Of a stretch of DNA of 38,001 nucleotides, positions 744 to 31,242 are shown one piece after another; within the stretch, counting starts at the first letter, position 1, and each line of letters begins with the position of its first letter. A program made the translations under genes and the position numbers. This DNA is from a virus: IMG/VR virus record IMGVR_UViG_3300008267_000360, positions 1 through 38,001 of that record. The stretch is one strand, 5' to 3'. Below the pieces are notes generated by a model. It did no database searches. It was not told the origin of the DNA and saw only the letters and a list, made by a program, of their open reading frames with translations.

Positions 744-1421
744 TTCTTTAATTCTTAAGATTTCTTCGTTAAGTTTTTCTGTGGTCTCTCCACCTAAAAG
801 TTTTGTTCCGTTACCTAATAAGCTATCTCCATCACCGTCTTCTTCTTTGTCATCTTTAAAAAACTCCCATTTATCATCTTTTTTAACCTCATCATCTTTT
901 TTAACTTCATCATCATCTTCAACATCTGTATCAGGTTCTTCTTTATCTTTATAAAATGCACAAGGGTCATTTTTAGGTTTTTTTCCAAATGCGGTTCTTG
1001 GTACACTGATTATATTTTTTGCAATACATCTCGCTCTATCTCTAGCACTCATAACAGCACCCTCACCTTTAAAAGTTTTTCCAATAAAAGATTTTGCGTC
1101 AATATAATTACCTTTATACTTAACTCTAAATTCAACTTCCTCATCAGTAACACCGATAACTGTTGACTGAGAAACCGATTCACCTTTAACAACTTTAATA
1201 TCACCGTCAATATTATAGATTGAGACGTAATCTTCGTCTATAGAGTCTTTATGTGAAATAAAAACTTCATCACCATCAATTTTAATAACTTTACCAGGTA
1301 AAACCGAAGTAATTCTATGGTCTTTACCATTGTCAACGATATATTTTATACCACCGTTAGAAATATTGTTTGTTTTAATACCAACAATTTCAATTGGTAA
1401 TTTTACTTTAATTTCACCCAT
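729..1421 (-). CDS. Degenerate M23 (LytM-fold) domain protein
   Basis: Residues of about 35-115 follow the beta-sandwich pattern of M23 peptidases: PGKVIKIDGDEVFISH, then YVSIYNIDGDIKVVKGESV, then VIGVTDEEVEFRV. The HxHFEV zinc site is replaced by EVEFRV and no HxxxD is present, so the domain is probably catalytically dead. Residues of about 140-200 are an acidic and lysine-rich linker. The tail KLNEEILRIKELLRL is a predicted amphipathic helix like those ending two other proteins here. The start codon overlaps the stop of the upstream active M23 gene by one base (TAATG), so the pair is probably translationally coupled. Fold assignment is by pattern only. Confidence 0.7.
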   Translation of the reverse strand: MGEIKVKLPIEIVGIKTNNISNGGIKYIVDNGKDHRITSVLPGKVIKIDGDEVFISHKDSIDEDYVSIYNIDGDIKVVKGESVSQSTVIGVTDEEVEFRVKYKGNYIDAKSFIGKTFKGEGAVMSARDRARCIAKNIISVPRTAFGKKPKNDPCAFYKDKEEPDTDVEDDDEVKKDDEVKKDDKWEFFKDDKEEDGDGDSLLGNGTKLLGGETTEKLNEEILRIKELLRL

Positions 1422-2587
1422 TACTTTATTAATTTTTTAAACATTTTAAGTTCTTCTTGTAAAAGTTTACTATAATCTTTGTTAACGTTTTCAGCTTGTT
1501 GTTTACCGTTAACTAATGTATTCAAAACACCTCCAACCATTGCCTTTGCACTATCTCTATAAGGATTGGTTTGTGCGGTTGAGGAATTAGTCGTTGAACT
1601 ACTATTAGTTCCTGTATTTGTTTGTGGTTGTTGAGTTCCAGAAACTGACTTAACAAATAATTTTCCATCACTAAGTCTACCTAATACCCCGTTTGATGTA
1701 ACTCCCGTAATTGATGGTGTCGCTGACCCGTTCCAATAGTATTCGTATTTTCCTCCGACTTTAACCGCATTTTGGTAACCACCTTTCTGTGACAACTGTT
1801 CAATTTTTCCACCTGGGTCAAATGCTCTGATATCTGACGTAAGAGTTGTTGATGTGTACATTACTCCACCATTAGTGTTTGTTTGGGTTGCTCCATCAAT
1901 AACTAAAACTTGTTCATTAATTAACTCTCTGTAACGATATATCTCTTGAGCAATTTCATTAACTGAATCAGGAGTAGTTTCTCCTTTATCCATACCAAAT
2001 AATGTTTTAATTAAATCTTTGGCAATATTTTTATAACTTTTAGTTTTATTATCACTATTATCTAAATCAATATCATCATTTGAGTCATTGGTATCTGTAT
2101 TAGTATTGTCAGGGACTGTAAGATTACTTTGCTCTCCACTAATTGAATTTTCATAATATGACTTTGGATTCACGGGAGTTCCATTTTCCCATACTTCAAA
2201 ATGTATGTGAGCACCCATCGCATTACCTCTACCGACATCATTTTTCCCTCCACCGGATAATCCAACAACTTGACCTTGTTTAACTTGGTCTCCTTTATTA
2301 ACATCTAATCGTTTAACGTGACAATATTTTGATTTAACATTCTTACCATTAAATGTACCGTGATTAATGGTTATTAAACCACCGCAATTACCAGCATTTG
2401 GAGAGGCCTTTTCAATAACCCCATCTAATGGAGAAGTAATCTCTGTACCACTTGGATACGATAAATCAATTCCTTTATGATTTTTACTAGCCTTTCCACC
2501 AATATTTCTAGGTCCAAATGGTGAACTTATTCTTGCTTTACCTGAATTTGTAATATTTCCAAACTGTGCCATATCATATAAATACAT
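1421..2587 (-). CDS. M23-family metallopeptidase (peptidoglycan endopeptidase)
   Basis: Residues 20-145 are a full LytM/M23 domain that would cut peptide cross-links in peptidoglycan. The zinc ligands are visible as HKGID (H37, D41) and HIHFEV (H127, H129), with H90 in YCH. The rest, about 150-388, is Ser/Thr/Asn-rich linker, a small beta domain around 245-320, and a C-terminal helix ending FKKLIK. There is no signal peptide, which fits a virion-borne enzyme better than a secreted one. The start could be 2587 or, more likely by sequence, the Met at 2572 (MAQFGN). An internal INEQ at about residue 220 resembles the leader cleavage site discussed in the findings. Confidence 0.9.
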   Translation of the reverse strand: MYLYDMAQFGNITNSGKARISSPFGPRNIGGKASKNHKGIDLSYPSGTEITSPLDGVIEKASPNAGNCGGLITINHGTFNGKNVKSKYCHVKRLDVNKGDQVKQGQVVGLSGGGKNDVGRGNAMGAHIHFEVWENGTPVNPKSYYENSISGEQSNLTVPDNTNTDTNDSNDDIDLDNSDNKTKSYKNIAKDLIKTLFGMDKGETTPDSVNEIAQEIYRYRELINEQVLVIDGATQTNTNGGVMYTSTTLTSDIRAFDPGGKIEQLSQKGGYQNAVKVGGKYEYYWNGSATPSITGVTSNGVLGRLSDGKLFVKSVSGTQQPQTNTGTNSSSTTNSSTAQTNPYRDSAKAMVGGVLNTLVNGKQQAENVNKDYSKLLQEELKMFKKLIK

Positions 2588-4810: not shown

Positions 4811-5425
4811 CTAATTAAATACTACTGGAGCCTTTTTTTCTCTATACTCACCTCCGCTACCTTGATACTGAGCCTTTTTATATTCTTCTTTATCTCCGAA
4901 TAAACCACCAACCCATCCTAACGCACTACAAACCGCATCTCGGATTACACCTTTCATACTTTGAGCAAATTCGGTAGTTGCTAAACTGTCAACAATTGTT
5001 TTTCTAAGAGCTACGGTTAAAATATCTTCATCAACAAATTGTCTTGCAACATATTTTGTAATGATTTCAGGTAGTTGAGCAACAATTAAATCACTAAATT
5101 TACCACAATTAGTTAAGATACCTGGTATTTCAGTCCACTTAGCATTTGCCAATACAACTTCAACAGTATCACGTAAAAATCCTTCTTCCATACCCATACC
5201 GTCAAGGATTGAGGAAATTACTCTTTCCCAAATTGTGTTCATCCCTGTACCACCAAACCATCCTTTAAGTTTATTACCCATATCATCTAACAAACCTTCA
5301 TTTAAAGATTTGTTTTTTTCAATAGACTCTAAAAGTTGTGGTAACACAATCTTCATTCTGTACTTTGGTGGTGATTGTATAAACTTCTCACAAAGTATTT
5401 TAAATTCTTGTTCTTGTCTTGTCAT
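4811..5425 (-). CDS. Hypothetical leader-type protein, 204 aa
   Basis: Not recognised. A helical N-terminus runs to LNEG at residues 41-44, which fits the [L/I]-x-E-[G] site shared by the leader set. Next come a Gly-rich segment (LKGWFGGTGM), a helical body (about 60-160), and a Gly-Trp segment (ALGWVGGLFGDKEEYKKAQ) that may insert in or lie on a membrane. The Met at 5425 (MTRQEQEF) is used; 5452 would lengthen a 26-base overlap with the upstream gene. It is the last gene of an overlapping trio. Confidence 0.7.
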   Translation of the reverse strand: MTRQEQEFKILCEKFIQSPPKYRMKIVLPQLLESIEKNKSLNEGLLDDMGNKLKGWFGGTGMNTIWERVISSILDGMGMEEGFLRDTVEVVLANAKWTEIPGILTNCGKFSDLIVAQLPEIITKYVARQFVDEDILTVALRKTIVDSLATTEFAQSMKGVIRDAVCSALGWVGGLFGDKEEYKKAQYQGSGGEYREKKAPVVFN

Positions 5426-6974
5426 TTTTTTTAAGTATTTCAGTATTCTCACTAAGAGTTTTATTCATATCATAGTTCATCATTAACAAAGCTCTGTTTA
5501 ATGCTTCAACTGACTCCATTCTTGGTAATTCTCTTCTTTGTTTTTTATTTATATCTCTTTTGTTAAACCCGTACATTTTAACAACTTTATTTTCACCACT
5601 ACCTAAGTCTTTCCAATTGAAGTTAAACTTGTTTAGACACGCAAAACATTTGGCTTTATATGCTGGGTTTGCGGAATGTTCTTTTCTTTCACATTTTTTC
5701 CACGAATTATACCAATTAACTGCCTCACTAAATAAAATCTTACAATCGTCCTTTGATATATCATCATCCTCTTGTTGTAAAATAGAAATAACACTTCCTG
5801 GTGTCGAACAACCTTCAATAATTATATTAGAGTTTCCTCCGTCTAAAACTACAGGTTGTGTGTTATCTTGAGTGAAATCGGTTTTACAGTAAGAAGATAC
5901 ATAACCTTTCAAGTACTTTTTCTTATCTCCCATAAACGCATATCCATCTTCACCTGAACTTGCTTTAGTTCCACAGAAACAAATTACATCTTGTAAATTA
6001 TCACAGTGCATTTCGGTATCCATTTGGTAATTGATAACTATTCTACATTCTCTTCTTAAGAATGATGGGTCATCAGATGACATATTTTCTCTAATACTAT
6101 TGTACGCTCTTATAACTTGCTTATCAGTAATCTTACATAAACTCTCAACAACATCTTCAGTGTCAGGATTGGTAGTAATCACAGAAGTTTGAGTAGGGGT
6201 TGTACCAACACCTCCAACATTAGTCACTGTACTCGATGATAAAGGGGTATTAGCATTTGGCTTATTACATATTCCCATAGTTGAAATGGTTTGTGGTCCC
6301 GCAATACCATCAGGTTTTAATCCGATACTTGACTGGTATTTAATTACCATAGCCTTTGTTAATGGTCCGTAAATCCCATCAACCTTTCCTGTTTTAGAAA
6401 CATTTTTAAATCCTTTAGAAATTAAAAATTCCTGTACAGGGTTTACTGAGTCTCCTTTCATACAATTTTTTAAATATGATGAACCTGAACATAAACTATC
6501 TAAAGATGGTGCTTGTTTACAATTTCCTTTTTTAATTATAGTTTCTTGTTCTTTTTCAGGATTAACAATAGGTGTTATTAATTGTGAATCTTGACCTGTA
6601 TTACTTCCACTACCAAAATTTAAATCAAATGTTTTTTGGTCATTAGGGTTAATCACATTAACTCCTATTGAAGTAAGGTGAGAAAACATTTGTTTAACCG
6701 AATTCCAATCTGTTTTTCTTTCAAAATTAAATTCGTCATCAATAAATTCTCTTAAATTATATTGGTCATTAACAGCTCTAGCCGTTTCTAAGTTAGGAAT
6801 TTCTTTAATTGCCTCAACTGCAACATCTTCATCAGTGCCCATACCTGTACCAAATCCAAACCAGTTATCGGATGTTGATTTTTTAAGTTTGTTGACAATT
6901 TCGGTAACTTTACTTTGGTCAACAGATTCTTTTAAAATCCTTTTAACAATTTCTTTTATTTTACTATCATTCAT
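5400..6974 (-). CDS. Peptidoglycan-binding protein with N-terminal leader
   Basis: The first 20 residues (MNDSKIKEIVKRILKESVDQ) are a leader helix ending at ILKE-S. Residues 40-80 include GTGMGTDED, reminiscent of the annexin GxGTDE loop. At about 170-240 a PG_binding_1-like repeat is clear: VQEFLISKGF, DGIYGPLTKAMVIKYQ, LKPDGIAGPQTI. A Cys-rich region at about 285-430 contains some ten cysteines and may form disulfides. The C-terminus is basic. It probably sits in the virion or tail and holds onto the cell wall. It overlaps both neighbours. Confidence 0.8.
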   Translation of the reverse strand: MNDSKIKEIVKRILKESVDQSKVTEIVNKLKKSTSDNWFGFGTGMGTDEDVAVEAIKEIPNLETARAVNDQYNLREFIDDEFNFERKTDWNSVKQMFSHLTSIGVNVINPNDQKTFDLNFGSGSNTGQDSQLITPIVNPEKEQETIIKKGNCKQAPSLDSLCSGSSYLKNCMKGDSVNPVQEFLISKGFKNVSKTGKVDGIYGPLTKAMVIKYQSSIGLKPDGIAGPQTISTMGICNKPNANTPLSSSTVTNVGGVGTTPTQTSVITTNPDTEDVVESLCKITDKQVIRAYNSIRENMSSDDPSFLRRECRIVINYQMDTEMHCDNLQDVICFCGTKASSGEDGYAFMGDKKKYLKGYVSSYCKTDFTQDNTQPVVLDGGNSNIIIEGCSTPGSVISILQQEDDDISKDDCKILFSEAVNWYNSWKKCERKEHSANPAYKAKCFACLNKFNFNWKDLGSGENKVVKMYGFNKRDINKKQRRELPRMESVEALNRALLMMNYDMNKTLSENTEILKKNDKTRTRI

Positions 6975-10044: not shown

Positions 10045-10666
10045 GTCAAAGATTATATTGAGTGAACAACAACGTAAAATGATTCTTATTGAGTCAGTAT
10101 CTAACGATATTGAAGATGTACAAAAACATTCTGAAAAACTATCTGAAAAAATTTATTCCGAAATTAAAAATCAGTTATCGTTTGATTTTAAAATTCTTTT
10201 AACTTGGAGTACCGCAATTGGTGGATTTCTCACTCCATTAACCCAATTAATTAAAGGAGAAAATCCTGAGTTAAGTGAAATGGATTCATATCTAATTTTA
10301 TGTGGTGTTGTGTTTACCGTATTGTTTCAAAACAAAGAAAATTTTAAATTAGTTAAAGACGAATTAGTTAAACGTGGGATATATGATACATTTTTATATG
10401 TTAAAGATAAAGCTTTGGATTTAAGAAAAACATTTTTTAGTTTTTTGTCAGGTTTAAACATTACAACCCATACAATGTCAGGTATTGTCGCATATTCATT
10501 TTTAATCCCAATTGTTCCAATTCTAATGCAATTATCGTCAGGTGAATCATTAAGTCCTGATGATATTTCTGAAATAGTAAAAAGGGTATCTGCTTGGGGA
10601 CTAACAATTGTCTCAGCAAACACCCTTAAAAATGTTATTACTAAAATTATAAGTAAATTTAATTAG
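10043..10666 (+). CDS. Multi-pass membrane protein with type B leader
   Basis: It begins MSKIILSEQQRKMILIES, a type B leader with possible cleavage sites at LSEQ and LIES. A helical stretch (about 20-55) is followed by four likely membrane segments at about 57-75, 90-108, 140-165 and 185-203. The leader plus membrane segments suggest delivery into, or assembly at, a membrane. Holin and infection-membrane roles are possible but not shown. The 3' end overlaps the opposing gene by eight bases. Confidence 0.7.
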   Translation: MSKIILSEQQRKMILIESVSNDIEDVQKHSEKLSEKIYSEIKNQLSFDFKILLTWSTAIGGFLTPLTQLIKGENPELSEMDSYLILCGVVFTVLFQNKENFKLVKDELVKRGIYDTFLYVKDKALDLRKTFFSFLSGLNITTHTMSGIVAYSFLIPIVPILMQLSSGESLSPDDISEIVKRVSAWGLTIVSANTLKNVITKIISKFN

Positions 10667-11921
10667 GACTCCAAGGGTCATCAGATGCTCCTCCACCTCC
10701 AACACCTGATAGTCCTGAAAGGATAATATACGTGAGTAATCCGAAAATAACCCATTCCCCTGAATACTTAAGAAACTTTTTACCCTTTTTTAATATACCG
10801 GCACCTAAACTAAGTGCATCGTCAGCCTTTGCACCTAATGTACTTAAAAGTGTATCAATGTTTTTATTACCTGTTTTACCTAAATTAGCCAATTTCAATT
10901 TACCTGAAGCGACATCACTAAACTTTTTTAATACTGACGCTTGTTCAGGTGAAAGTTTTGACGATAAGGTTCTGTACATCCTCTCAAGTTGTTTTGAGTT
11001 TATATCTCTGGCCGTCTTAGTCGAGGTATATGCTTCAATAAAATCAATGAACATTTGATTATTTTCTGGTGATAATGTACCGTCAAATGATTTTAGTTTT
11101 GTCTCAAGTTTATTTAATTCTTTTACATATTTTGAAGTTGCTCTGTTTACTACAGGTACTGAACCAAATACATCAGCCATTTGGTCCCATCTATTGTTAG
11201 GAGGTAAGTAAGATTCAATTTGTTGTTCAAATTTACTTGTGCCACCCCCAAAATCAAAATCATTTACAGGTCGGTCATCAGGTTTAGGAGGGATTGGACC
11301 GTCCTTAGATTTTGATGAACCTCCTTTAGCATTAATTTTTTCTTCAATCTTATCAAGATATTGAGTTTCAAAATTATGTTTAACCTCTAATGTAAACGCA
11401 TCTGATGTATCTAAATCATTAATATACGATTCTAATTGAAGTTTAAATTTTTCCAATTCTTCAAGAGTAAGTTTATCCCCTCTTTCCGCGGCGTATCTAA
11501 TAATTCTCGCAAAGTCATTTCCCATAATAGCATCAGCAGCGTATCTTGTAAATTTCGCAGGATTTTGCTTTGATAACGCAACTACAAAATCTTCTAACAC
11601 ATCGTCAGTAGTATTTTTAAAATATTTTTCAATAACGTCATTTGGTTTTGCCGATGACAAATACTCCTTTTCAAATTGTGCATATAATCCATCAATATCT
11701 GATGTTCCGGGATTAGATGTTTTCAACATATTTTTAAGCTCAATTAATGAAGCTTGTTCAACACCTTGTTTCATACCTATCTTAACTGCATTTTGAAGAC
11801 CTGGTATTCCTTCATTCAATAAATTTTCACTTTCAAGTAGATAGTTTTTTTTGGTTGCAGTTATATGCATATTAAGAATTCTTTCTCTTTCAGATTCATT
11901 AATTACAAATAAATTTTTCAT
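10659..11921 (-). CDS. Large leader-bearing protein with C-terminal membrane segment
   Basis: A type C leader (MKNLFVINESERERILNMH) is followed by LLNEG at residues 34-38, a predicted cleavage site. Most of the 420 residues are helical and charged, with a low-complexity linker at about 200-225. The C-terminus has one membrane segment (WVIFGLLTYIILSGLSG) and a Gly-rich tail. No named domain was found. Helical body plus terminal membrane segment fits an internal virion or ejection protein. TATTTATAAAAAA precedes the start. Confidence 0.75.
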   Translation of the reverse strand: MKNLFVINESERERILNMHITATKKNYLLESENLLNEGIPGLQNAVKIGMKQGVEQASLIELKNMLKTSNPGTSDIDGLYAQFEKEYLSSAKPNDVIEKYFKNTTDDVLEDFVVALSKQNPAKFTRYAADAIMGNDFARIIRYAAERGDKLTLEELEKFKLQLESYINDLDTSDAFTLEVKHNFETQYLDKIEEKINAKGGSSKSKDGPIPPKPDDRPVNDFDFGGGTSKFEQQIESYLPPNNRWDQMADVFGSVPVVNRATSKYVKELNKLETKLKSFDGTLSPENNQMFIDFIEAYTSTKTARDINSKQLERMYRTLSSKLSPEQASVLKKFSDVASGKLKLANLGKTGNKNIDTLLSTLGAKADDALSLGAGILKKGKKFLKYSGEWVIFGLLTYIILSGLSGVGGGGASDDPWSPN

Positions 11922-19455: not shown

Positions 19456-20283
19456 ATGAAAAACACAGAAACTTACAACGAATTAGTTCAAAAAATGAGA
19501 ACATTCTTCCAAGAGAAAGGATTTAAAGAAGTTCCAACCCAATCAAGATTATCAATCTTAGCTGCGTGTGAAAACCCACACTCAATAACAACATTTAATT
19601 ACCAAGGAGAAGTTTGGCCATTACCACAGACAGGCCAAATGTGGTTAGAATATGAACTTCTTAAAAATCCTGAATGGAATGGTGTATATTGTATTTCAAC
19701 GTCATATAGACAAGAAAAAGACCCAATTCCAGGTCGTCACGAAATGATTTTCCCAATGTTTGAGTTTGAATCAAAAGGTGGAATGAAAGATATGTTAAAA
19801 CTTGAATCAGAGCTTTTAGATTATTTAGGGTTTGATAAAGCAATTGAGGTTAACTATGATGATGTTTGTGAAGAATATGGTGGAGTTCAAATTTTAGAAA
19901 ACGAACACGAAACAAGAATGTGGGAAGAGAAAGGTCCTGTAGTGTCTCTTCAAAATTTCCCATACAGAACTAACCCATTTTGGAATATGAGAGAAGGGAT
20001 GGACAAAATTTTCAACAAAGTAGATGTGATTCTTTACGGACAAGAAACTATTGGTTCCGCTGAAAGAAGTTCTAATGTAGAAGAAATGAGAAATAATTTC
20101 TACACAATTGAGAATGGGAAATACTCTGAAAAACTTTTTGAGTTATTCGGTAAAGAAAGAGTTGAGAAAGAATTAGAAGAATTTTTATCACACGATTTCT
20201 TCCCACGTTTTGGTGGAGGAATTGGAATGACAAGATTGGCAAGAGCCTATCAGTTAATGATGGAAGAAGTCGAAGCTTTCTAA
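19456..20283 (+). CDS. AsnRS/AspRS-like class II catalytic core (no anticodon domain)
   Basis: At 275 aa it has the class II synthetase core. Motif 2 is seen in SYRQEKDPIPGRHEMIFPMF at about residues 93-112, the Asp/Asn-type signature in DVILYGQETIGSAERSSN at about 191-208, and motif 3 in FGGGIGMTRLARAYQ at about 253-267. The N-terminal OB-fold anticodon-binding domain of AsnRS (about 100 residues) is missing, as in archaeal asparagine synthetases derived from AsnRS. It may make Asn, an Asn-adenylate product or charge a molecule without reading anticodons. Asn-dependent attenuation is indicated. Confidence 0.8.
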   Translation: MKNTETYNELVQKMRTFFQEKGFKEVPTQSRLSILAACENPHSITTFNYQGEVWPLPQTGQMWLEYELLKNPEWNGVYCISTSYRQEKDPIPGRHEMIFPMFEFESKGGMKDMLKLESELLDYLGFDKAIEVNYDDVCEEYGGVQILENEHETRMWEEKGPVVSLQNFPYRTNPFWNMREGMDKIFNKVDVILYGQETIGSAERSSNVEEMRNNFYTIENGKYSEKLFELFGKERVEKELEEFLSHDFFPRFGGGIGMTRLARAYQLMMEEVEAF

Positions 20284-20578: not shown

Positions 20579-20980
20579 TTATCTTCTTTTTCTTACAATA
20601 CGACTTTCCATCATTGTAGAGTCATTTTCTTCATCAGAAATACCCATATCTTTGTTATATCTTTTTCTCGAAACCTCACCCATTCCTGAAGGGTCTAGGT
20701 CTGTGGTTTCCATTGCTGTTTGTAAAGCCTTTTCAACTTTATCAGCTTCAGCGTCGTTACCAGACTTTCTTAATTTTTTAATTGCGGCTTTAATGTAGTG
20801 TGAACCTGCAATTCCTAACATTCCGATTACAGTTGTAACGATTGTTATAATTGCTTCACCTGTGTCCAACGCTTCAGGATTAAAGAAGTTTTCAGGTTGC
20901 TCATTCATTTCAGTTTCATTAACAATGTTCTTAATTAAAGATGTTAATTCTGATTCAGTTAAACGTATTACTTTTTTCAT
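20579..20980 (-). CDS. Type A leader membrane protein, 133 aa
   Basis: MKKVIRLTESELTSLIKNIV is a type A leader, and EMNEQ at residues 24-28 is the predicted cleavage position. One membrane segment follows (about residues 42-65, IITIVTTVIGMLGIAGSHYI), then a basic and acidic tail ending VRKRR. The Met at 20980 starts the leader; TATTTATAATAAAC lies upstream. The pattern suggests a single-pass membrane-associated virion protein. Confidence 0.72.
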   Translation of the reverse strand: MKKVIRLTESELTSLIKNIVNETEMNEQPENFFNPEALDTGEAIITIVTTVIGMLGIAGSHYIKAAIKKLRKSGNDAEADKVEKALQTAMETTDLDPSGMGEVSRKRYNKDMGISDEENDSTMMESRIVRKRR

Positions 20981-21543: not shown

Positions 21544-21945
21544 TTACGCTCTAACAAAATCAATATTTTGTAACGTACTTTCTAATGTAAATTGTCTTTT
21601 GTTATTTTGTTTAGCATCATACCATTTACTGGCAAATTGTTTTTGGTCATCAGAGTCCATACAATAAGATTTTCTAATTGTCCAATCCTGGCTATTTCCA
21701 ACACAAATTTCTCCGTTAGAATTCCATAAACCTTTAACCACCAAATATTGGTCTCTACCATTTTGTTCAGGAAATTTCATTTTCCATTTAACACCTTCAA
21801 TTTCTAAAAGACCGTATTCAGCTAGTTTGATTGGTACCCAATTGTCAATTTTTTCATCTTCATTTAGTAATCTTTTATTTTCGCTGATTACTTTTTTAAC
21901 TAATCTAACGATATCTGATTCGGTTAATCTAACAACTTTTTTCAT
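21544..21945 (-). CDS. Type A leader protein, 133 aa
   Basis: MKKVVRLTESDIVRLVKKVI is a type A leader, followed by RLLNED at residues 25-30, matching the L-x-E site with D after it. The remaining 100 residues form a compact Trp-rich domain (GVKWKMKFPEQNGRDQYLVV, NSQDWTIRKSYC) of no named family. The Met at 21945 starts the leader; a TATTTATTAATAA element lies upstream. Confidence 0.72.
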   Translation of the reverse strand: MKKVVRLTESDIVRLVKKVISENKRLLNEDEKIDNWVPIKLAEYGLLEIEGVKWKMKFPEQNGRDQYLVVKGLWNSNGEICVGNSQDWTIRKSYCMDSDDQKQFASKWYDAKQNNKRQFTLESTLQNIDFVRA

Positions 21946-22530: not shown

Positions 22531-23889
22531 TTACTGAACAAACGAACTATCTTGATTACTTAAGTAATTACCAGCCTTTAACATACCCCAAAATTGGTTG
22601 TTATCGTTTTGTGTGATAGTGTAGTCATTACCTTTATATTTCATAACTAAATTACCATTTGATGTAGACCAAGAACCTGTTGTCTTATCGTACACAGGTG
22701 AGAACGCCGACTTGTCTTTTTGTAAAACCAAAACTCCATCAGGATAAAAATCAACTAAAACATATGGTCTGTCAGTTGAGGAAGCGACTTGTAATTTTTT
22801 ATCGTCGTTTTTAGTCTTATGGAAATTATTCATTAATTTTTTAACTAATGGAAAATCTAATGCCGATGATTGAGGTTGATTAGTGTTACCACCTTTAAGG
22901 TATTCCTGCCCATATTGTTTAAATGCTCTTTTGATATATGAATTTTTGTAACTACCACTTTTATCCAATTTATATTTTTTAGCCCATTCAGGGTATTTGG
23001 TATTAACCCATTGTCTAAATGCATCTCCTTCTTGTTTATTTTTAAATGGAAGTACGGTATTCGTAGTTGATTGTTGAGATGTACTAACAACACTTTGAGC
23101 CCCTGCAGGTTTTTGAATAGTGTATCTAATTGGATATCCTGTATATCCACCTGTCTCTTTTAACGCAACTAATTTTCTAATAACACTATATAAACTTGAT
23201 TCACCTTTCCAAAACATACTTAAAGTATCCGAAAATTGTTTTAAAACTTCATCTTTAGGTAAGTTAAACGCATTAAAATCATAGTTATCAATAATTTCAA
23301 TTTTATTGTCATCAATTTTTTTAACTCCTCCTTTTGAAATCTCTCCTAACGTATACATAAACTCTCCCGCCAATCCAGGATTTGATAAACTTGCAGCTTG
23401 TGGGTTGTTTTTTAATCTTTCAGTTTCAGATTTAATACCTTCAGGAGTAATCGCAGTTGGTAAATTTTGAGCTCCTAATGTTCTCCACATATCATATTTA
23501 AAACCATTTTTTAATCCGTATTTAGTTGCGACATCCCATAAGTAAGTTTTCTCACCACTCTTTAACATTGATTCGTTTTTAGTTTCGGTAGTACCAATAA
23601 GGTAATAATAAAGAGCCCTTAAGTGTAAAGGTAAGTTACTTATCACTAAGTTATTCAATGACAAATTAGATACCACATACTTTGTGAAGGTTGCCAATGA
23701 ATTGATAAAATCTCTGGATGCCTGCATTTGTTTTTCAGATTCTTCAGGAGTTTGTTGACTTCTTTCCAAATACCTCTCGTATGCGGTCTGTTCATTAATT
23801 AAATTAAGATACAAATTTTTTGTTGAGCTCTTATGCATCTCCAAAATTCTTGTCTTTTCATCTTCGGGTATTAAAAATTGATTTTTCAT
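22531..23889 (-). CDS. Large type C leader protein, 452 aa
   Basis: A type C leader (MKNQFLIPEDEKTRILEMH) ends at LINEQT (residues 30-35). The central part (about residues 90-240) is mixed and not recognised. At about 285-340 the segment EGDAFRQWVNTKYPEWAKKY, followed by NSYIKRAFKQYGQEY, looks like a small helical domain. The C-terminal 90 residues are beta-rich. TATTTATATAATATG lies at the start. Virion cargo is the best inference. Confidence 0.72.
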   Translation of the reverse strand: MKNQFLIPEDEKTRILEMHKSSTKNLYLNLINEQTAYERYLERSQQTPEESEKQMQASRDFINSLATFTKYVVSNLSLNNLVISNLPLHLRALYYYLIGTTETKNESMLKSGEKTYLWDVATKYGLKNGFKYDMWRTLGAQNLPTAITPEGIKSETERLKNNPQAASLSNPGLAGEFMYTLGEISKGGVKKIDDNKIEIIDNYDFNAFNLPKDEVLKQFSDTLSMFWKGESSLYSVIRKLVALKETGGYTGYPIRYTIQKPAGAQSVVSTSQQSTTNTVLPFKNKQEGDAFRQWVNTKYPEWAKKYKLDKSGSYKNSYIKRAFKQYGQEYLKGGNTNQPQSSALDFPLVKKLMNNFHKTKNDDKKLQVASSTDRPYVLVDFYPDGVLVLQKDKSAFSPVYDKTTGSWSTSNGNLVMKYKGNDYTITQNDNNQFWGMLKAGNYLSNQDSSFVQ

Positions 23890-24585: not shown

Positions 24586-25107
24586 TTATCTAAGATTAAC
24601 TATATAATCTTTTGGTATTATTTTTTCAATTTCCTCTTCTCTGATTTCTTTTTCAAAATTAAAATCGGTCCAATCAATCCCATTTAATTTTGTTGGTACT
24701 ACCCATATTGCCTTTTCTCTAAGACCTTTATCGTTAAAATCGGCCCAATCCCCACCTAATTCTATTGACATATCACTTATAAATGTCATAAGTTTGGTGA
24801 GTTCTGACCTATCGGTAATTTCAGGAACCTCAACCGCAACTGCCGATTCGTATAAATCATCCTCAGGGGAAGTAACGTCGTAAGTTAATACCCTAAATGG
24901 TAATTTGTATGATTTAAACTCTTTATCACCGTGGACACTAAAATATATACTCCCACCCAACTTAGAGTCAACTAATGCGTTTAAATAAGGGTATTTTGAA
25001 ATCTTTTCTCTAAATTTTTTGAGTCCTCCAAAATGTTCAGCAATAGTAATAATTGATGAACCTTTATCAATTAGATTTATAATTTTTTGAGAAAAGTTAT
25101 CGGACAT
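24586..25107 (-). CDS. Hypothetical protein, 173 aa
   Basis: Not recognised. The N-terminus is helical (FSQKIINLIDKGSSIITIAE); the rest is alpha/beta and acidic. There is no leader. It overlaps the stop of the upstream peptidoglycan-binding gene by one base and so belongs to the same transcript. The downstream plus-strand GAF-like gene ends one base from it. Confidence 0.7.
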   Translation of the reverse strand: MSDNFSQKIINLIDKGSSIITIAEHFGGLKKFREKISKYPYLNALVDSKLGGSIYFSVHGDKEFKSYKLPFRVLTYDVTSPEDDLYESAVAVEVPEITDRSELTKLMTFISDMSIELGGDWADFNDKGLREKAIWVVPTKLNGIDWTDFNFEKEIREEEIEKIIPKDYIVNLR

Positions 25108-25796
25108 TACTTTTTATTGAGTAATTGTAATACAGCGTCTGCAGTATATGGTCCAAATCTACCATCTTTACCTTTAGGCCCTAATGCATCACCAAGTCCC
25201 GCATCAATTACTTTTTGTTGAATTTGTGCAACTTTATTCTCAGATGGAGTTTCAGTAGATGTTTGAGTAGGTTCACCACCTTGTTCAGTACTTGTTGTTT
25301 GTTCTGTACCTGATGATTGCTGTCCTGAAATAAAACCTTTTAATGAGTTAATTTCAGTGTCCCCGATATACCCAGCTTTAAATTTATTAGGGTTTGATGT
25401 AATATACTGAGCAATTTGTGATTGTAAGGATTTTTCAGAAATTGACCCTGAAAAAGTTTTACCGTCGGATAAAGTTATTTTAACATTTTTATCGTCGGCA
25501 GTCCATTGACCTGTAGTCGCCGCTGGGGCACCTGTACCTGTATTTTTAATATCAAAATATCCATTATTACAAACATTAGAAATGATATTACTTCTAAGTT
25601 TACCGTCATAGATTGTAGTCTGCCAGCAATCACCTTCTTTGTCGGGTTGAGAGAATCCAATAGTTTTTGCAACTGTCTCAGATGAAGTTTTTTGTCCTGA
25701 TGGATACAATGTACTGTTAAAAATATCCATAGCGGTTTGCTCGTAAAGATTCTTGATTCTTTTTCTTTCGTCTTCGGTAATAATAAATTTTTTCAT
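25107..25796 (-). CDS. Type C leader protein with C-terminal peptidoglycan-binding domain
   Basis: MKKFIITEDERKRIKNLYEQ ends at the LYEQ site (residues 17-20). A beta-rich middle (about 30-150) and a Thr/Ser/Glu-rich linker (155-185) lead to a PG_binding_1-like end at about residues 190-229, with VAQIQQKVIDAGL and GKDGRFGPYTADAVLQL. The same arrangement, leader then linker then wall-binding unit, is seen in the 5400-6974 protein. TATTTATTGGTATG lies at the start. Confidence 0.78.
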   Translation of the reverse strand: MKKFIITEDERKRIKNLYEQTAMDIFNSTLYPSGQKTSSETVAKTIGFSQPDKEGDCWQTTIYDGKLRSNIISNVCNNGYFDIKNTGTGAPAATTGQWTADDKNVKITLSDGKTFSGSISEKSLQSQIAQYITSNPNKFKAGYIGDTEINSLKGFISGQQSSGTEQTTSTEQGGEPTQTSTETPSENKVAQIQQKVIDAGLGDALGPKGKDGRFGPYTADAVLQLLNKK

Positions 25797-25817: not shown

Positions 25818-26009
25818 TTAAAAGTTGCTCATCATCTTTTGAATTTCAGATTCAATCATACCTTGACTATATTCTAATTTCTTAATTTCATTAAGTTGTG
25901 ATTGATTTAATTCAAAATTTTGTCCCTTGATTGACGCGATTTGATTACCTAAAATGGTGTGTTCATTTAAAAGGTAACTATACCTTTGAGCTAAAGCTTC
26001 TCTGTCCAT
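25818..26009 (-). CDS. Small coiled-coil protein, 63 aa
   Basis: Two helices with heptad-like spacing (ALAQRYSYLLNEHTILGNQI and ELNQSQLNEIKKLEYSQGMI) and a turn between them. No leader or signal is visible. A TATATTTATAAAA element lies upstream. Function unknown. Confidence 0.65.
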   Translation of the reverse strand: MDREALAQRYSYLLNEHTILGNQIASIKGQNFELNQSQLNEIKKLEYSQGMIESEIQKMMSNF

Positions 26010-26065
26010 AATAATTGTTTTTTATAAATATAAATGATGTTTAAGAATAAAGAATAGTTAAATAA

Positions 26066-26090
26066 AAAACCCCTCACTTGGAGGGGTTTT
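26066..26090. terminator. Terminator of the stand-alone leader gene
   Basis: A 10-bp stem AAAACCCCTC/GAGGGGTTTT with loop ACTTG, three bases beyond the minus-strand stop at 26093. Confidence 0.8.
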
Positions 26091-26092
26091 GA

Positions 26093-26242
26093 TTACTTTT
26101 CAGTTAGGAACGTTTTAACATCTCCTGATTTTGTTTCAATCAGTTTTTTGAAATTTTCAATGACAATTTTTTTACCACCTTCGTGTTGTTCACGAATTGC
26201 GTTTTTTGTCTCCTCAGATAAATCGTTTAATAAATGTTTCAT
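26093..26242 (-). CDS. Stand-alone leader peptide (49 aa)
   Basis: The whole protein equals the first 49 residues of the 28813-29217 protein in register, with about 60% identity. The alignment pairs MKHLLNDLSEETKNAIREQH with MKHLLNNLTEEEKNSIRRQH, then the shared TKSGDVK and FLTE/FLNE. It stops at FLTEK*, one residue after the Glu where the long paralogue continues with NEQTSS. It has its own TATTTAT element and terminator. It may be a truncated duplicate, or a real free leader. Confidence 0.75.
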   Translation of the reverse strand: MKHLLNDLSEETKNAIREQHEGGKKIVIENFKKLIETKSGDVKTFLTEK

Positions 26243-26288
26243 AGTATAATAGTTTATATATAAATACATTAAAAAACTAAAAACTTTT

Positions 26289-26816: not shown

Positions 26817-27152
26817 TTAATTACCCATTCCTGATTTTGCCAACTTTGTTAGGTTGTCATATATTTTACTTAAATCCCCTTTAGTTGCAGCATTTACTAA
26901 TACGTCATACTGACTACCCAATTGTTGTTTGTAGTTACCAATAGAATCAACTACACCTTTACTATCGCCAGTTAAACAATCCCATATAATACCTCCAATA
27001 ACATTTGATGGTAAAACTTTTACCGCCAATTTAATTGCGTTATATAAAATTTCACCCATATTCGCAGAAGTACCAACAAATGTTTGTTCTTGGATGACTC
27101 TTGTCACAATTCTTGTAACGTCTGATTCTGATAGTTTAACAATTTTTTTCAT
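26817..27152 (-). CDS. Type A leader protein, 111 aa
   Basis: MKKIVKLSESDVTRIVTRVI ends at VIQEQT (residues 19-24), one of the clearest leader-plus-site examples. The 88 residues after it hold a hydrophobic Gly-containing helix (LPSNVIGGIIWDCLTG) and a helical end. The Met at 27152 directly follows the TATTTATAATT element; 27176 would place the leader internally. Confidence 0.75.
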   Translation of the reverse strand: MKKIVKLSESDVTRIVTRVIQEQTFVGTSANMGEILYNAIKLAVKVLPSNVIGGIIWDCLTGDSKGVVDSIGNYKQQLGSQYDVLVNAATKGDLSKIYDNLTKLAKSGMGN

Positions 27153-27207: not shown

Positions 27208-27708
27208 TTACTCGACATCTTCGTACTTGTACCCCAAAGGAACAGGTGGAGTAAAACTCATATCATACTCCTCAAGTTCTTTCTTATACTCATCAATTCT
27301 TTCACGTGTGAAAATAGGAGCAAAAAGTGGTCGTCTACTGAACGGAACATTGTCTCGGTTATCCCACTCTTCAAGTTCCTTTTCCATATTAGGAATACTC
27401 TTAGTTAGATAATCCCATTCTTTCCAAGCTTTATACTCTTCTTCCGACTTGACGTAATACACTCCACCATAGTTTTGTAAATTCAAATCAGGATTGGTTG
27501 TATAAACATCAACAATACCTTCATCACCATCGTATTGATAACATAACTGATTAAGAACATATGTGTTACTTGGACGCTCAGTCCAACTTCTTCCATAAGA
27601 ACGAACTTTACATAGATACAAAAATCCGTCATCTATGAAATTAAGACGGTTTTCAATTTCATCTCTTAATTTAACAAGTTCTTCAAAAGTGTGGTTATCT
27701 AAATTCAT
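27208..27708 (-). CDS. Hypothetical protein, 166 aa
   Basis: Not recognised. A helical N-terminus (TFEELVKLRDEIENRL) is followed by a Tyr/Trp-rich middle and a charged helical segment with a repeat-like EELEEW/KELEEY pattern, ending GYKYEDVE. There is no leader. A TTTG-N20-TATATTTG promoter lies directly before the Met at 27708, which is preferred over 27726 for that reason. Confidence 0.7.
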   Translation of the reverse strand: MNLDNHTFEELVKLRDEIENRLNFIDDGFLYLCKVRSYGRSWTERPSNTYVLNQLCYQYDGDEGIVDVYTTNPDLNLQNYGGVYYVKSEEEYKAWKEWDYLTKSIPNMEKELEEWDNRDNVPFSRRPLFAPIFTRERIDEYKKELEEYDMSFTPPVPLGYKYEDVE

Positions 27709-27772: not shown

Positions 27773-28789
27773 TTATCCTTTTTTCCAAGTACTTCTCCTA
27801 ATATATTCTCCTGTTGTGGTATTTTGTTTAAAATCATCTTCTTTAACCATAACATACCCGCCAGCGTTAAGTCTCCTCTTATCATCATTATACATTGTAT
27901 CTAAATTTTGTCTTTGTGTACTTTTTTTAACTAAACAAATATCATATCCACTTTGGGACTTACAAAAATCTTCAGATACTTTATCTTTATCACTTTTATA
28001 AATAATACTTTTCAACTCATCTACAGTTGTTGTTGTTGTCGTTGTACTACCTGCATTGTCGTTTTTACTTGAGGTAACAGGTGTATTTGTTGGTTTGTTA
28101 GGATTATAACTTGTGTTATTGTAAAGTTCTTCTTGACTTTCCGGTGTACTTGTTACATCGTTTAAATATCTAACATAGGGACGACCAATTGGAGTTAGAA
28201 AATTATAAGTTTCTTTAGTGAATGGTTGACCTTCAGTTGCCGAATAAAATTTAAACCCACCAATTGGCATATCTACTAACTCAGTAGGGTACTTTTGTTT
28301 TATCTCATCAACAGTAAGGTTTGTACCAATACCCGTCATATCAATACCTTTTGACATTCCAACCTTATCTACATATTTTCCAAATGTTTTGAATGATGGC
28401 ATTTTAGTAAATAATTGTGTTATAATACTCTCAACGTCCGGACCATAAGCACTAACAACATCTGTCGGTGTTGTTGTTGCGGTAGTCGGTGCCGTTGTAT
28501 TAGTCTGTCCTGCGGCTTTAGTCTGAGTTTTTCCAGGTAACTTTAATTTCTGACCGACACGAATTAAATTGACATTTTTAATTTGATTTAAAGTTGCAAT
28601 TTCTCTCCAATTCAGTCCCAATTTTTGGCCAATCTTACTTAATGTATCACCTCTTTGAACTGTATATTCTTCGTTTGAGGTTTGTTCACTAATCATTTGT
28701 TGGTTATTAAACCTTTCATTCAGAAGTCGTTCTTCAAGTCTAAGATTCGCTTCTTGTATGTGTCTAATTTTACTATAACTTTTGTTCAT
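27773..28789 (-). CDS. LysM-domain protein with leader-like N-terminus
   Basis: Residues 1-37 are a charged helix ending at MISEQT (residues 32-37), the leader cleavage form. A LysM domain follows immediately at 42-85 (YTVQRGDTLSKIGQKLGL, LIRVGQKLKLPG), which binds peptidoglycan glycan chains. A Thr/Ala linker leads to a second domain of about 130 residues, another Ser/Thr-rich linker, and a C-terminal Cys/Lys domain (about 270-338). It lies 24 bases downstream of the 28813-29217 leader gene. Confidence 0.8.
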   Translation of the reverse strand: MNKSYSKIRHIQEANLRLEERLLNERFNNQQMISEQTSNEEYTVQRGDTLSKIGQKLGLNWREIATLNQIKNVNLIRVGQKLKLPGKTQTKAAGQTNTTAPTTATTTPTDVVSAYGPDVESIITQLFTKMPSFKTFGKYVDKVGMSKGIDMTGIGTNLTVDEIKQKYPTELVDMPIGGFKFYSATEGQPFTKETYNFLTPIGRPYVRYLNDVTSTPESQEELYNNTSYNPNKPTNTPVTSSKNDNAGSTTTTTTTVDELKSIIYKSDKDKVSEDFCKSQSGYDICLVKKSTQRQNLDTMYNDDKRRLNAGGYVMVKEDDFKQNTTTGEYIRRSTWKKG

Positions 28790-28812: not shown

Positions 28813-29217
28813 TTAAATAGAACTGTCGTATCTATCATCTAACTTTTCAATTGGAAATGGACCTACACCATATTTCCATCTTTCAGGAGAGACAACAAAA
28901 ATTACCATCTTCCCATCAGATATTAATTTAACATTACCTTTAACATAATACTTATACGTTGGGTATTTTTTTATTAATTGTAACAATCGGTCTTTTTGTT
29001 GACCATTAGGTAATGAATTAATTTCCACTAATTGATAACCTTTTTGTATTAAAGGGTCGTTACTTGAGGTTTGTTCATTCAAGAATAATTTTACATCTCC
29101 TGACTTAGTGTTAATTAATTTTGAAAAATTTTCCGTAACAACGTTCATTCCTCCGGTATGTTGTCTACGTATAGAGTTTTTTTCTTCCTCTGTTAAATTA
29201 TTTAATAAATGTTTCAT
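28813..29217 (-). CDS. Leader protein, 134 aa (long paralogue of the stand-alone leader)
   Basis: MKHLLNNLTEEEKNSIRRQH to LFLNEQT (site at residues 46-49) is nearly the same in layout as the 49-aa protein at 26093-26242. After the site comes a small domain (about 55-134; YQLVEINSLPNGQQKDRLLQ, YKYYVKGNVKLISDGKMVIF) with no named family. The unit starts at a GTATTTATATATTATG element, and the LysM gene follows on the same transcript. Confidence 0.75.
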   Translation of the reverse strand: MKHLLNNLTEEEKNSIRRQHTGGMNVVTENFSKLINTKSGDVKLFLNEQTSSNDPLIQKGYQLVEINSLPNGQQKDRLLQLIKKYPTYKYYVKGNVKLISDGKMVIFVVSPERWKYGVGPFPIEKLDDRYDSSI

Positions 29218-30520: not shown

Positions 30521-30588
30521 ATTACAATAAATACATTAGAAATAAAAAGGGGGTTGGGGGATTGAACAACAGAGAAAAATTATTTTTT
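30518..30588 (-). repeat. Intergenic cassette repeat, copy 2
   Basis: Core AAAAAGGGGGTTGGGGGATTG then AACAACAGAGAAAAATTATTT. It joins the 30580 gene's stop to the 30520 start codon with the element GTATTTATTGTAATATG. Confidence 0.8.
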
Positions 30589-31242
30589 ACAATCATCAAA
30601 TTTTTTGGATATAATTTCTTTCAATTCATCAAGTTCAGAGCGGAACCCTAAATTATAATGCCAAGCAATTTCATTCGAATATCTTTTTTTCATTTCCTCA
30701 ATTACTTCATCAGATGCTTGTTTTATTAATTCACATTCATCACTATAATCATTATAAAACCATCTATCAATCATTTCTTCCACAGTGTCTTGTATAGGTT
30801 TCCTCCATATAATCAATGAAATAATACGATGAATTAATGTACTAATTCTTTTTGATGTTTTTCTTTCAATAGACTTTAATTCTTTAAGGATATCACCATT
30901 AAGGTAATTTGATTCAATTAAATCTAACAATAAATTTATGGCTTTATCTTGATTATATCCGTTAATTGATAAGTTGTATTTAACACCTCCATCATTATTA
31001 TAAATTAATAATCTTAATCCTCCACCTGAATTTTCGTTTCTAATATCACCATAAAAATTTCTTACTTTGGTGGTGTTATCCAATAACTTATATAGTTTGG
31101 TATTTTCTAAAACATCAAAAATATTTAAACTGTCTTCCTTTTCTCCAATTCGTTTTGCTGGACGTTTTTTATCAGATTCGTTAACCACCCTACTGACTAT
31201 TCTAATCAAATCTGATTCAGTTAATCTTACAACTTTTTTCAT
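30580..31242 (-). CDS. Type A leader protein, 220 aa
   Basis: MKKVVRLTESDLIRIVSRVV ends at VVNES (residues 19-23). A basic stretch KKRPAKRIGEK follows (24-35) and is shared with the next gene. The rest is a helical, charged domain (about 60-220). Its ATG overlaps the stop of the 31239 gene by four bases. The unit is bounded by cassette copies 2 and 3, so it is a two-gene cassette. Confidence 0.72.
   Translation of the reverse strand: MKKVVRLTESDLIRIVSRVVNESDKKRPAKRIGEKEDSLNIFDVLENTKLYKLLDNTTKVRNFYGDIRNENSGGGLRLLIYNNDGGVKYNLSINGYNQDKAINLLLDLIESNYLNGDILKELKSIERKTSKRISTLIHRIISLIIWRKPIQDTVEEMIDRWFYNDYSDECELIKQASDEVIEEMKKRYSNEIAWHYNLGFRSELDELKEIISKKFDDCKK

Follow-up and report, generated by a model that had tools for sequence, protein, structure and literature searches.

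The gene considered here raises the question of what an N-terminal leader shared with larger proteins would do as a gene of its own, with no body behind it. The window, i.e. the whole 38,001-nt stretch of DNA that was analysed, is a 38-kb fragment of the giant freshwater phage carrying this gene, and the ORF translates to MKHLLNDLSEETKNAIREQHEGGKKIVIENFKKLIETKSGDVKTFLTEK followed directly by its stop (Table 1). As the first-pass annotation had proposed, the 49-aa protein aligns in a gap-free register with residues 1-49 of a bodied same-leader paralogue located 2.6 kb away, with 69% identity over the leader portions. An in-frame ATG at 26269 would give a product of 58 aa; because this alternative start overlaps the promoter-like element and all homologues start at MKH, the likely product is the one of 49 aa. 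Past Glu48 the protein has Lys49 only, where a T4-type capsid-targeted internal head protein (CTS protein) has its mature body, and no body continuation was found 3' of the stop in any frame. The gene has therefore been classed as a free leader and not as an internal protein. AlphaFold returns a low-confidence, mostly helical model for the leader (pLDDT 66).

Table 1. Location of the features discussed, in positions of the 38,001-nt window.
Feature	Position	Strand	Basis
Leader-only gene, 49 aa, end FLTE-K then stop	26093..26242	-	ORF translation; 17 distinct leader-only homologues
Paralogue: leader residues 1-48 in common + 86-aa body, 134 aa total	28813..29217	-	Alignment
TATTTAT, putative promoter, 24 nt 5' of ATG	26260..26266	- (ATAAATA on + strand)	Sequence; also 5' of other leader genes
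Intrinsic terminator-like hairpin CCCCTCACTTGGAGGGG (26070-26086) with T-run	26062..26090	-	Sequence
N63, ~62-aa neighbour marking the orthologous site	25818..26009	-	Also in L008, L009, L013, L029 and others
MNLxxYT gene, upstream syntenic gene (MNLDNHTFEELVKL...)	27208..27708	-	Conserved
Neighbour with a different leader (MKKIVKLSESDVTRIVTRVIQE)	26817..27152	-	Body weakly similar to MKHLL-leader body in L053
Short-leader genes, part 1	5400-6974, 10659-11921, 20579-20980, 21544-21945, 22531-23889	all -	L/I/V-x-E leader end
Short-leader genes, part 2	25107-25796, 26817-27152, 27773-28789, 30580-31242	all -	L/I/V-x-E leader end

The upstream TATTTAT element and the terminator that had been assigned to the gene are both present, the latter as a hairpin (CCCCTCactTGGAGGGG) followed by a T-run and beginning a few nt 3' of the stop. 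In related loci, TATTTAT lies 5' of 66 of the 74 intact leader genes, 65 times at 18-26 nt before the ATG and once at 12 nt, for a background frequency of about 1 per kb, and is thus likely a phage promoter element. As for the standalone genes themselves, 15 of 17 have TATTTAT 18-25 nt upstream, and in 13 of 17 the stop is followed by a terminator-like hairpin at most 70 nt away, the downstream sequence having been inspected for all 17 copies (15 in one set, L169 and L186 separately).

Scans of uncultured viral contigs yielded 77 distinct MKHLL-type proteins, among which stand-alone leader genes of related phages are well represented: 17 proteins are standalone (46-58 aa), 57 are bodied (106-532 aa) and 3 are broken. 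The broken ones, kept outside the standalone set, are decaying leader genes, namely L024 (1427-1585, body frameshifted), L046 (4001-4069, a standalone leader with a frameshift) and L174 (3001-3189, body down to 14 residues). Moreover, L007 matches the window over 8,147 nt with 100% identity and thus comes from the same population; it was not counted as independent support. As the 17 leader-only proteins all end at residues 46-58 and a single protein, the decaying L174 (62 aa), falls within the gap from 58 to 106 aa, the position of the stop is, on the evidence of these sequences, beyond chance. The standalone leader of L055 (4001-4147) has KPLINE as its very last residues; the gene that follows begins within the final codons of this leader (ATGAATAA) and carries a leader of another kind (MNKFFITESERKHIKSLY).

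The standalone form appears specific to this class of leader. Indeed, a regex census of the same loci found no short form (<70 aa) among 177 members of four other leader classes (type 1, 0/94; C-half, 0/12; type 2, 0/15; type 3, 0/56), compared with 17/77 for the MKHLL class (Fisher P 4e-10), the loci having been fetched for holding an MKHLL leader so that the contrast is one between leader classes within one phage set. All 13 records of 125-326 kb have one full MKHLL-type leader each, which is standalone in three of them (G018, G019 and G049); these three have no bodied MKHLL protein, while other leader classes are present. A full MKHLL leader is absent from the two near-300-kb records that were chosen for their capsid similarity, so the wider clade does not have it as a core gene. 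On the leader tree, which has few supported branches, standalone and bodied states are scattered (15 changes versus a shuffled mean of 15.6). This tree is too short to count origins: at most 15 changes are seen and the supported branches force only 2, so that the 17 standalone copies, which are not all independent events, have a number of origins beyond its resolution. Given this scatter, some of the standalone copies may have arisen recently, in which case part of their constraint may go back to ancestors with a body.

Such constraint is apparent in pairwise comparisons. Pairs among L130, L132, L141 and L144 display 7-12 synonymous and 0 nonsynonymous differences over 44 codons, although their tails past Glu48 differ, and between the leaders of the window and L013 there are 13 synonymous against 4 nonsynonymous differences (omega 0.044). 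Since L132 and L144 have a common tail and L130 and L132 a common downstream gene, each of these two pairs probably inherited the standalone state from its common ancestor. Furthermore, the standalone tails after Glu48 are short and contain 6 hydrophobic residues out of 87, versus 160 out of 570 in the first ten residues of the bodies. The first-pass annotation had left room for a chance truncation; for the class as a whole, recurrence in 17 distinct leader-only proteins together with constraint leads us to reject it, and to regard leader-only genes not as accidents but as a recurring state under constraint.

The window gene also occupies a conserved genomic position. A leader site between N63 and the MNLxxYT gene is found in the window and in L008, L009, L013 and L029, N63 being near the leader gene in one subgroup. 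Because these two genes flank the same site in the relatives, we regard the leader-only gene as the positional orthologue and the 134-aa paralogue as an extra copy. Full-length genes at this place in related phages, as the trace of a recent nonsense or deletion event, had been named in the first-pass annotation as evidence against its reading, and this is borne out in part. L008 and L009 do encode a bodied protein of 152 aa at the site; L013 and L029 are leader-only there, as is the window, which does not fit one recent nonsense event.

That the leader may be an exchangeable module, another suggestion of the first-pass annotation, is strongly supported by its presence on many bodies, by bodies found on different leaders and by a breakpoint at codon 48. 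Indeed, one leader is shared by many unrelated bodies, in 57 distinct bodied MKHLL proteins, as the leader of T4-type CTS proteins is. In L013, the gene that lies 24 nt before the standalone leader joins a type-1 leader to a homologue of the L008 body (E 3e-10, 48% over 60 aa), and a homologue of the L014 body is found in L029, itself standalone, on a nearby C-half leader, a third leader type (48% over 94 aa); among others, the bodies of L032, L153 and L155 are likewise found on other leaders. Within the window, the body of the neighbour with a different leader matches the L053 body with 31.6% identity over 79 aa (E 1.5e-6). At the DNA level, L015 and L016 share 96.8% identity that ends precisely at codon 48; the bodies differ, and the match resumes downstream. 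Furthermore, the C-terminal half of the MKHLL leader also exists as a separate, shorter leader. The principle of a leader with variable cargo is already known from T4.

An L/I/V-x-E motif, at which cleavage is predicted, closes the leader in 54 of the 57 bodied proteins and in 15 of the 17 standalone ones, and reads FLTE in the window gene. Every one of the 61 leaders with Glu48 has L, I or V at position 46, and column conservation falls from residue 49 on. The two standalone proteins without L-x-E, L166 and L186, keep residues 1-43, so cutting would not always be needed for whatever the free leader does and might be of secondary importance. In T4, gp21 cuts after L/I-X-E and the propeptides of internal proteins, 10-19 residues long, target the core (PMC9026906), the internal proteins of T-even phages being diverse with only the targeting sequence conserved (PMC3012670). 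We infer cleavage and core targeting of the present leader from these parallels. As the 38-kb fragment does not include the region of the protease and capsid genes, the link to the head is taken from large relatives, where PF03420 (Peptidase_S77, T4 gp21-type prohead protease) was detected in 11 of 13 records above 200 kb and PF07068 (Gp23-type capsid protein) in 11 of 11 large records tested. The capsid proteins of these relatives have a conserved 60-aa N-terminus ending in LINE, followed by A/S and a variable stretch; this is as expected for a predicted gp21 propeptide and is the same motif as at the end of the leader.

The closest known parallel is offered by IPI-IPIII, internal head proteins of T4 that are cut by gp21 and likewise combine an N-terminal leader with diverse bodies and an L/I-x-E site (PMC9026906, PMC3012670), together with a gp21-type protease and a Gp23-type capsid protein, present here in related genomes. 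However, the T4 leaders are 10-19 aa long and body-bearing (PMC9026906, PMC3012670), whereas the present one is bipartite, has 48 aa, is without a match in any known family, and exists without a body as well. T4 gp67 and gp68 are small core-entering proteins, gp67 being cut by gp21 (PMC9026906). They are a possible functional parallel for the free leader. To our knowledge, neither is known as a stand-alone version of a cargo leader. In the giant phage SPN3US, whose protease is gp245, head and ejection proteins carry removable N-terminal propeptides of 20-254 aa according to the accessible part of the report, which describes no body-less propeptide gene (PMC10052503). Similarly, the accessible part of a study of bS21-encoding freshwater Bacteroidetes jumbo phages (up to 331 kb, predicted Bacteroidetes hosts) lists terminase, capsid and prohead protease genes but does not mention leaders (PMC9723584). 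These phages and the present records possibly belong to the same broad group. Judged by the capsid protein, Flavobacterium phage immuto is among the nearest isolates (~42% identity). As for the leader itself, no match was obtained in Pfam, the best PHROG hit (E 0.05) was not significant, and tblastn of the leader consensus found no match in 50,697 phage records (INPHARED isolates). A leader profile search of genome contigs gave no confirmed relative, hence no host is named, and a literature search for the type-1 leader motif gave no match.

Many other genes of the window start with short leaders ending in L/I/V-x-E (e.g. MKKVVRLTESDLIRIVSRVVNE), of few leader types, and the phage may load dozens of internal head proteins. 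Some of the bodies on these short leaders carry LysM or peptidoglycan-binding domains. The product of 1421-2587 (-) has a metallo-endopeptidase match (PHROG E 1e-23) and is a possible lysin or virion-associated wall enzyme. Finally, 19456-20283 (+), which we take to be an aminoacyl-tRNA-synthetase-like gene, is 94-96% identical to its counterparts in L009 and L013, most neighbours there being at ~40-73%; this suggests recent exchange or strong constraint.

We consider it probable that the MKHLL sequence is an exchangeable capsid-targeting leader, T4-like in principle, which also exists as a selected body-less gene. The sequences themselves establish modularity, recurrence, constraint and synteny, along with the protease and capsid genes of large relatives: leader and cargo are independent modules with recombination at the junction codon, and at one genomic site the leader stays whereas its cargo has been exchanged, has passed to a different leader or is missing. 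The body-less leader would most likely be made late from its own promoter, enter the prohead core through the contacts used by cargo leaders and serve there as a small peptide of the core or scaffold, to be cut or expelled afterwards; a scaffold was also among the possible roles named in the first-pass annotation. More tentatively, and as a proposal that we place somewhat short of an even chance, the 48-residue leader may be the primary gene, a small prohead-core component at a conserved site to which cargo proteins have been fused and from which they have been lost.

While a body-less core peptide is the role that fits best, its main rival is a relic of body swapping, i.e. a functionless leader left after recombination removes or moves the cargo and lasting only until it acquires a new cargo or disappears. 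In its favour, L013 and L029 have, on another leader nearby, a homologue of a body known from an MKHLL leader; L046 and L174 look like stages of decay, and the tree of leaders shows a rapid turnover between bodied and standalone states. We nevertheless hold this explanation to be unlikely, as the absence of nonsynonymous differences against 7-12 synonymous ones extends to pairs in which the standalone state is probably of common descent, as the promoter-like element and terminators have been retained, and as the other leader classes swap bodies too, yet left none of these remnants among 177 cases. It is more doubtful still that the leader functions outside the head, for instance by binding a host or phage regulator, with bodies added secondarily and L-x-E mattering only for fusions: the specificity of standalone forms for the MKHLL class and the loss of L-x-E from L166 and L186 would fit, but the motif is kept in the 15 other standalone copies, leaders of this class and other L-x-E leaders replace one another on the same bodies, and no known regulator was matched. 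The first-pass annotation had also envisaged a competitor. Such a decoy, tuning cargo loading by titrating core binding or the protease, is very improbable; it would suit the window, with its same-leader bodied paralogue close by, and hardly holds as a general rule, given that each of the 13 large records has one full MKHLL leader and that the three with a standalone one have other leader classes but no same-class cargo. Lastly, a sequencing error or a single chance nonsense mutation in the window can practically be dismissed: such assemblies do contain frameshifted copies (L024), but here a terminator directly follows the stop with no body in any frame, the independent orthologue in L013 has no body either, and 17 distinct proteins have this form.

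Capsid-targeting leaders are seen as disposable tags. Recurrent leader-only genes with a promoter-like element, a terminator and near-zero nonsynonymous change would mean that the tag has a role of its own, perhaps in building the core. Furthermore, the locus displays swapping of leader and cargo at the predicted cleavage codon, which would represent a naturally occurring means of loading cargo into very large phage heads. If the leader is indeed the primary gene, a targeting signal would exist as an independently selected protein.
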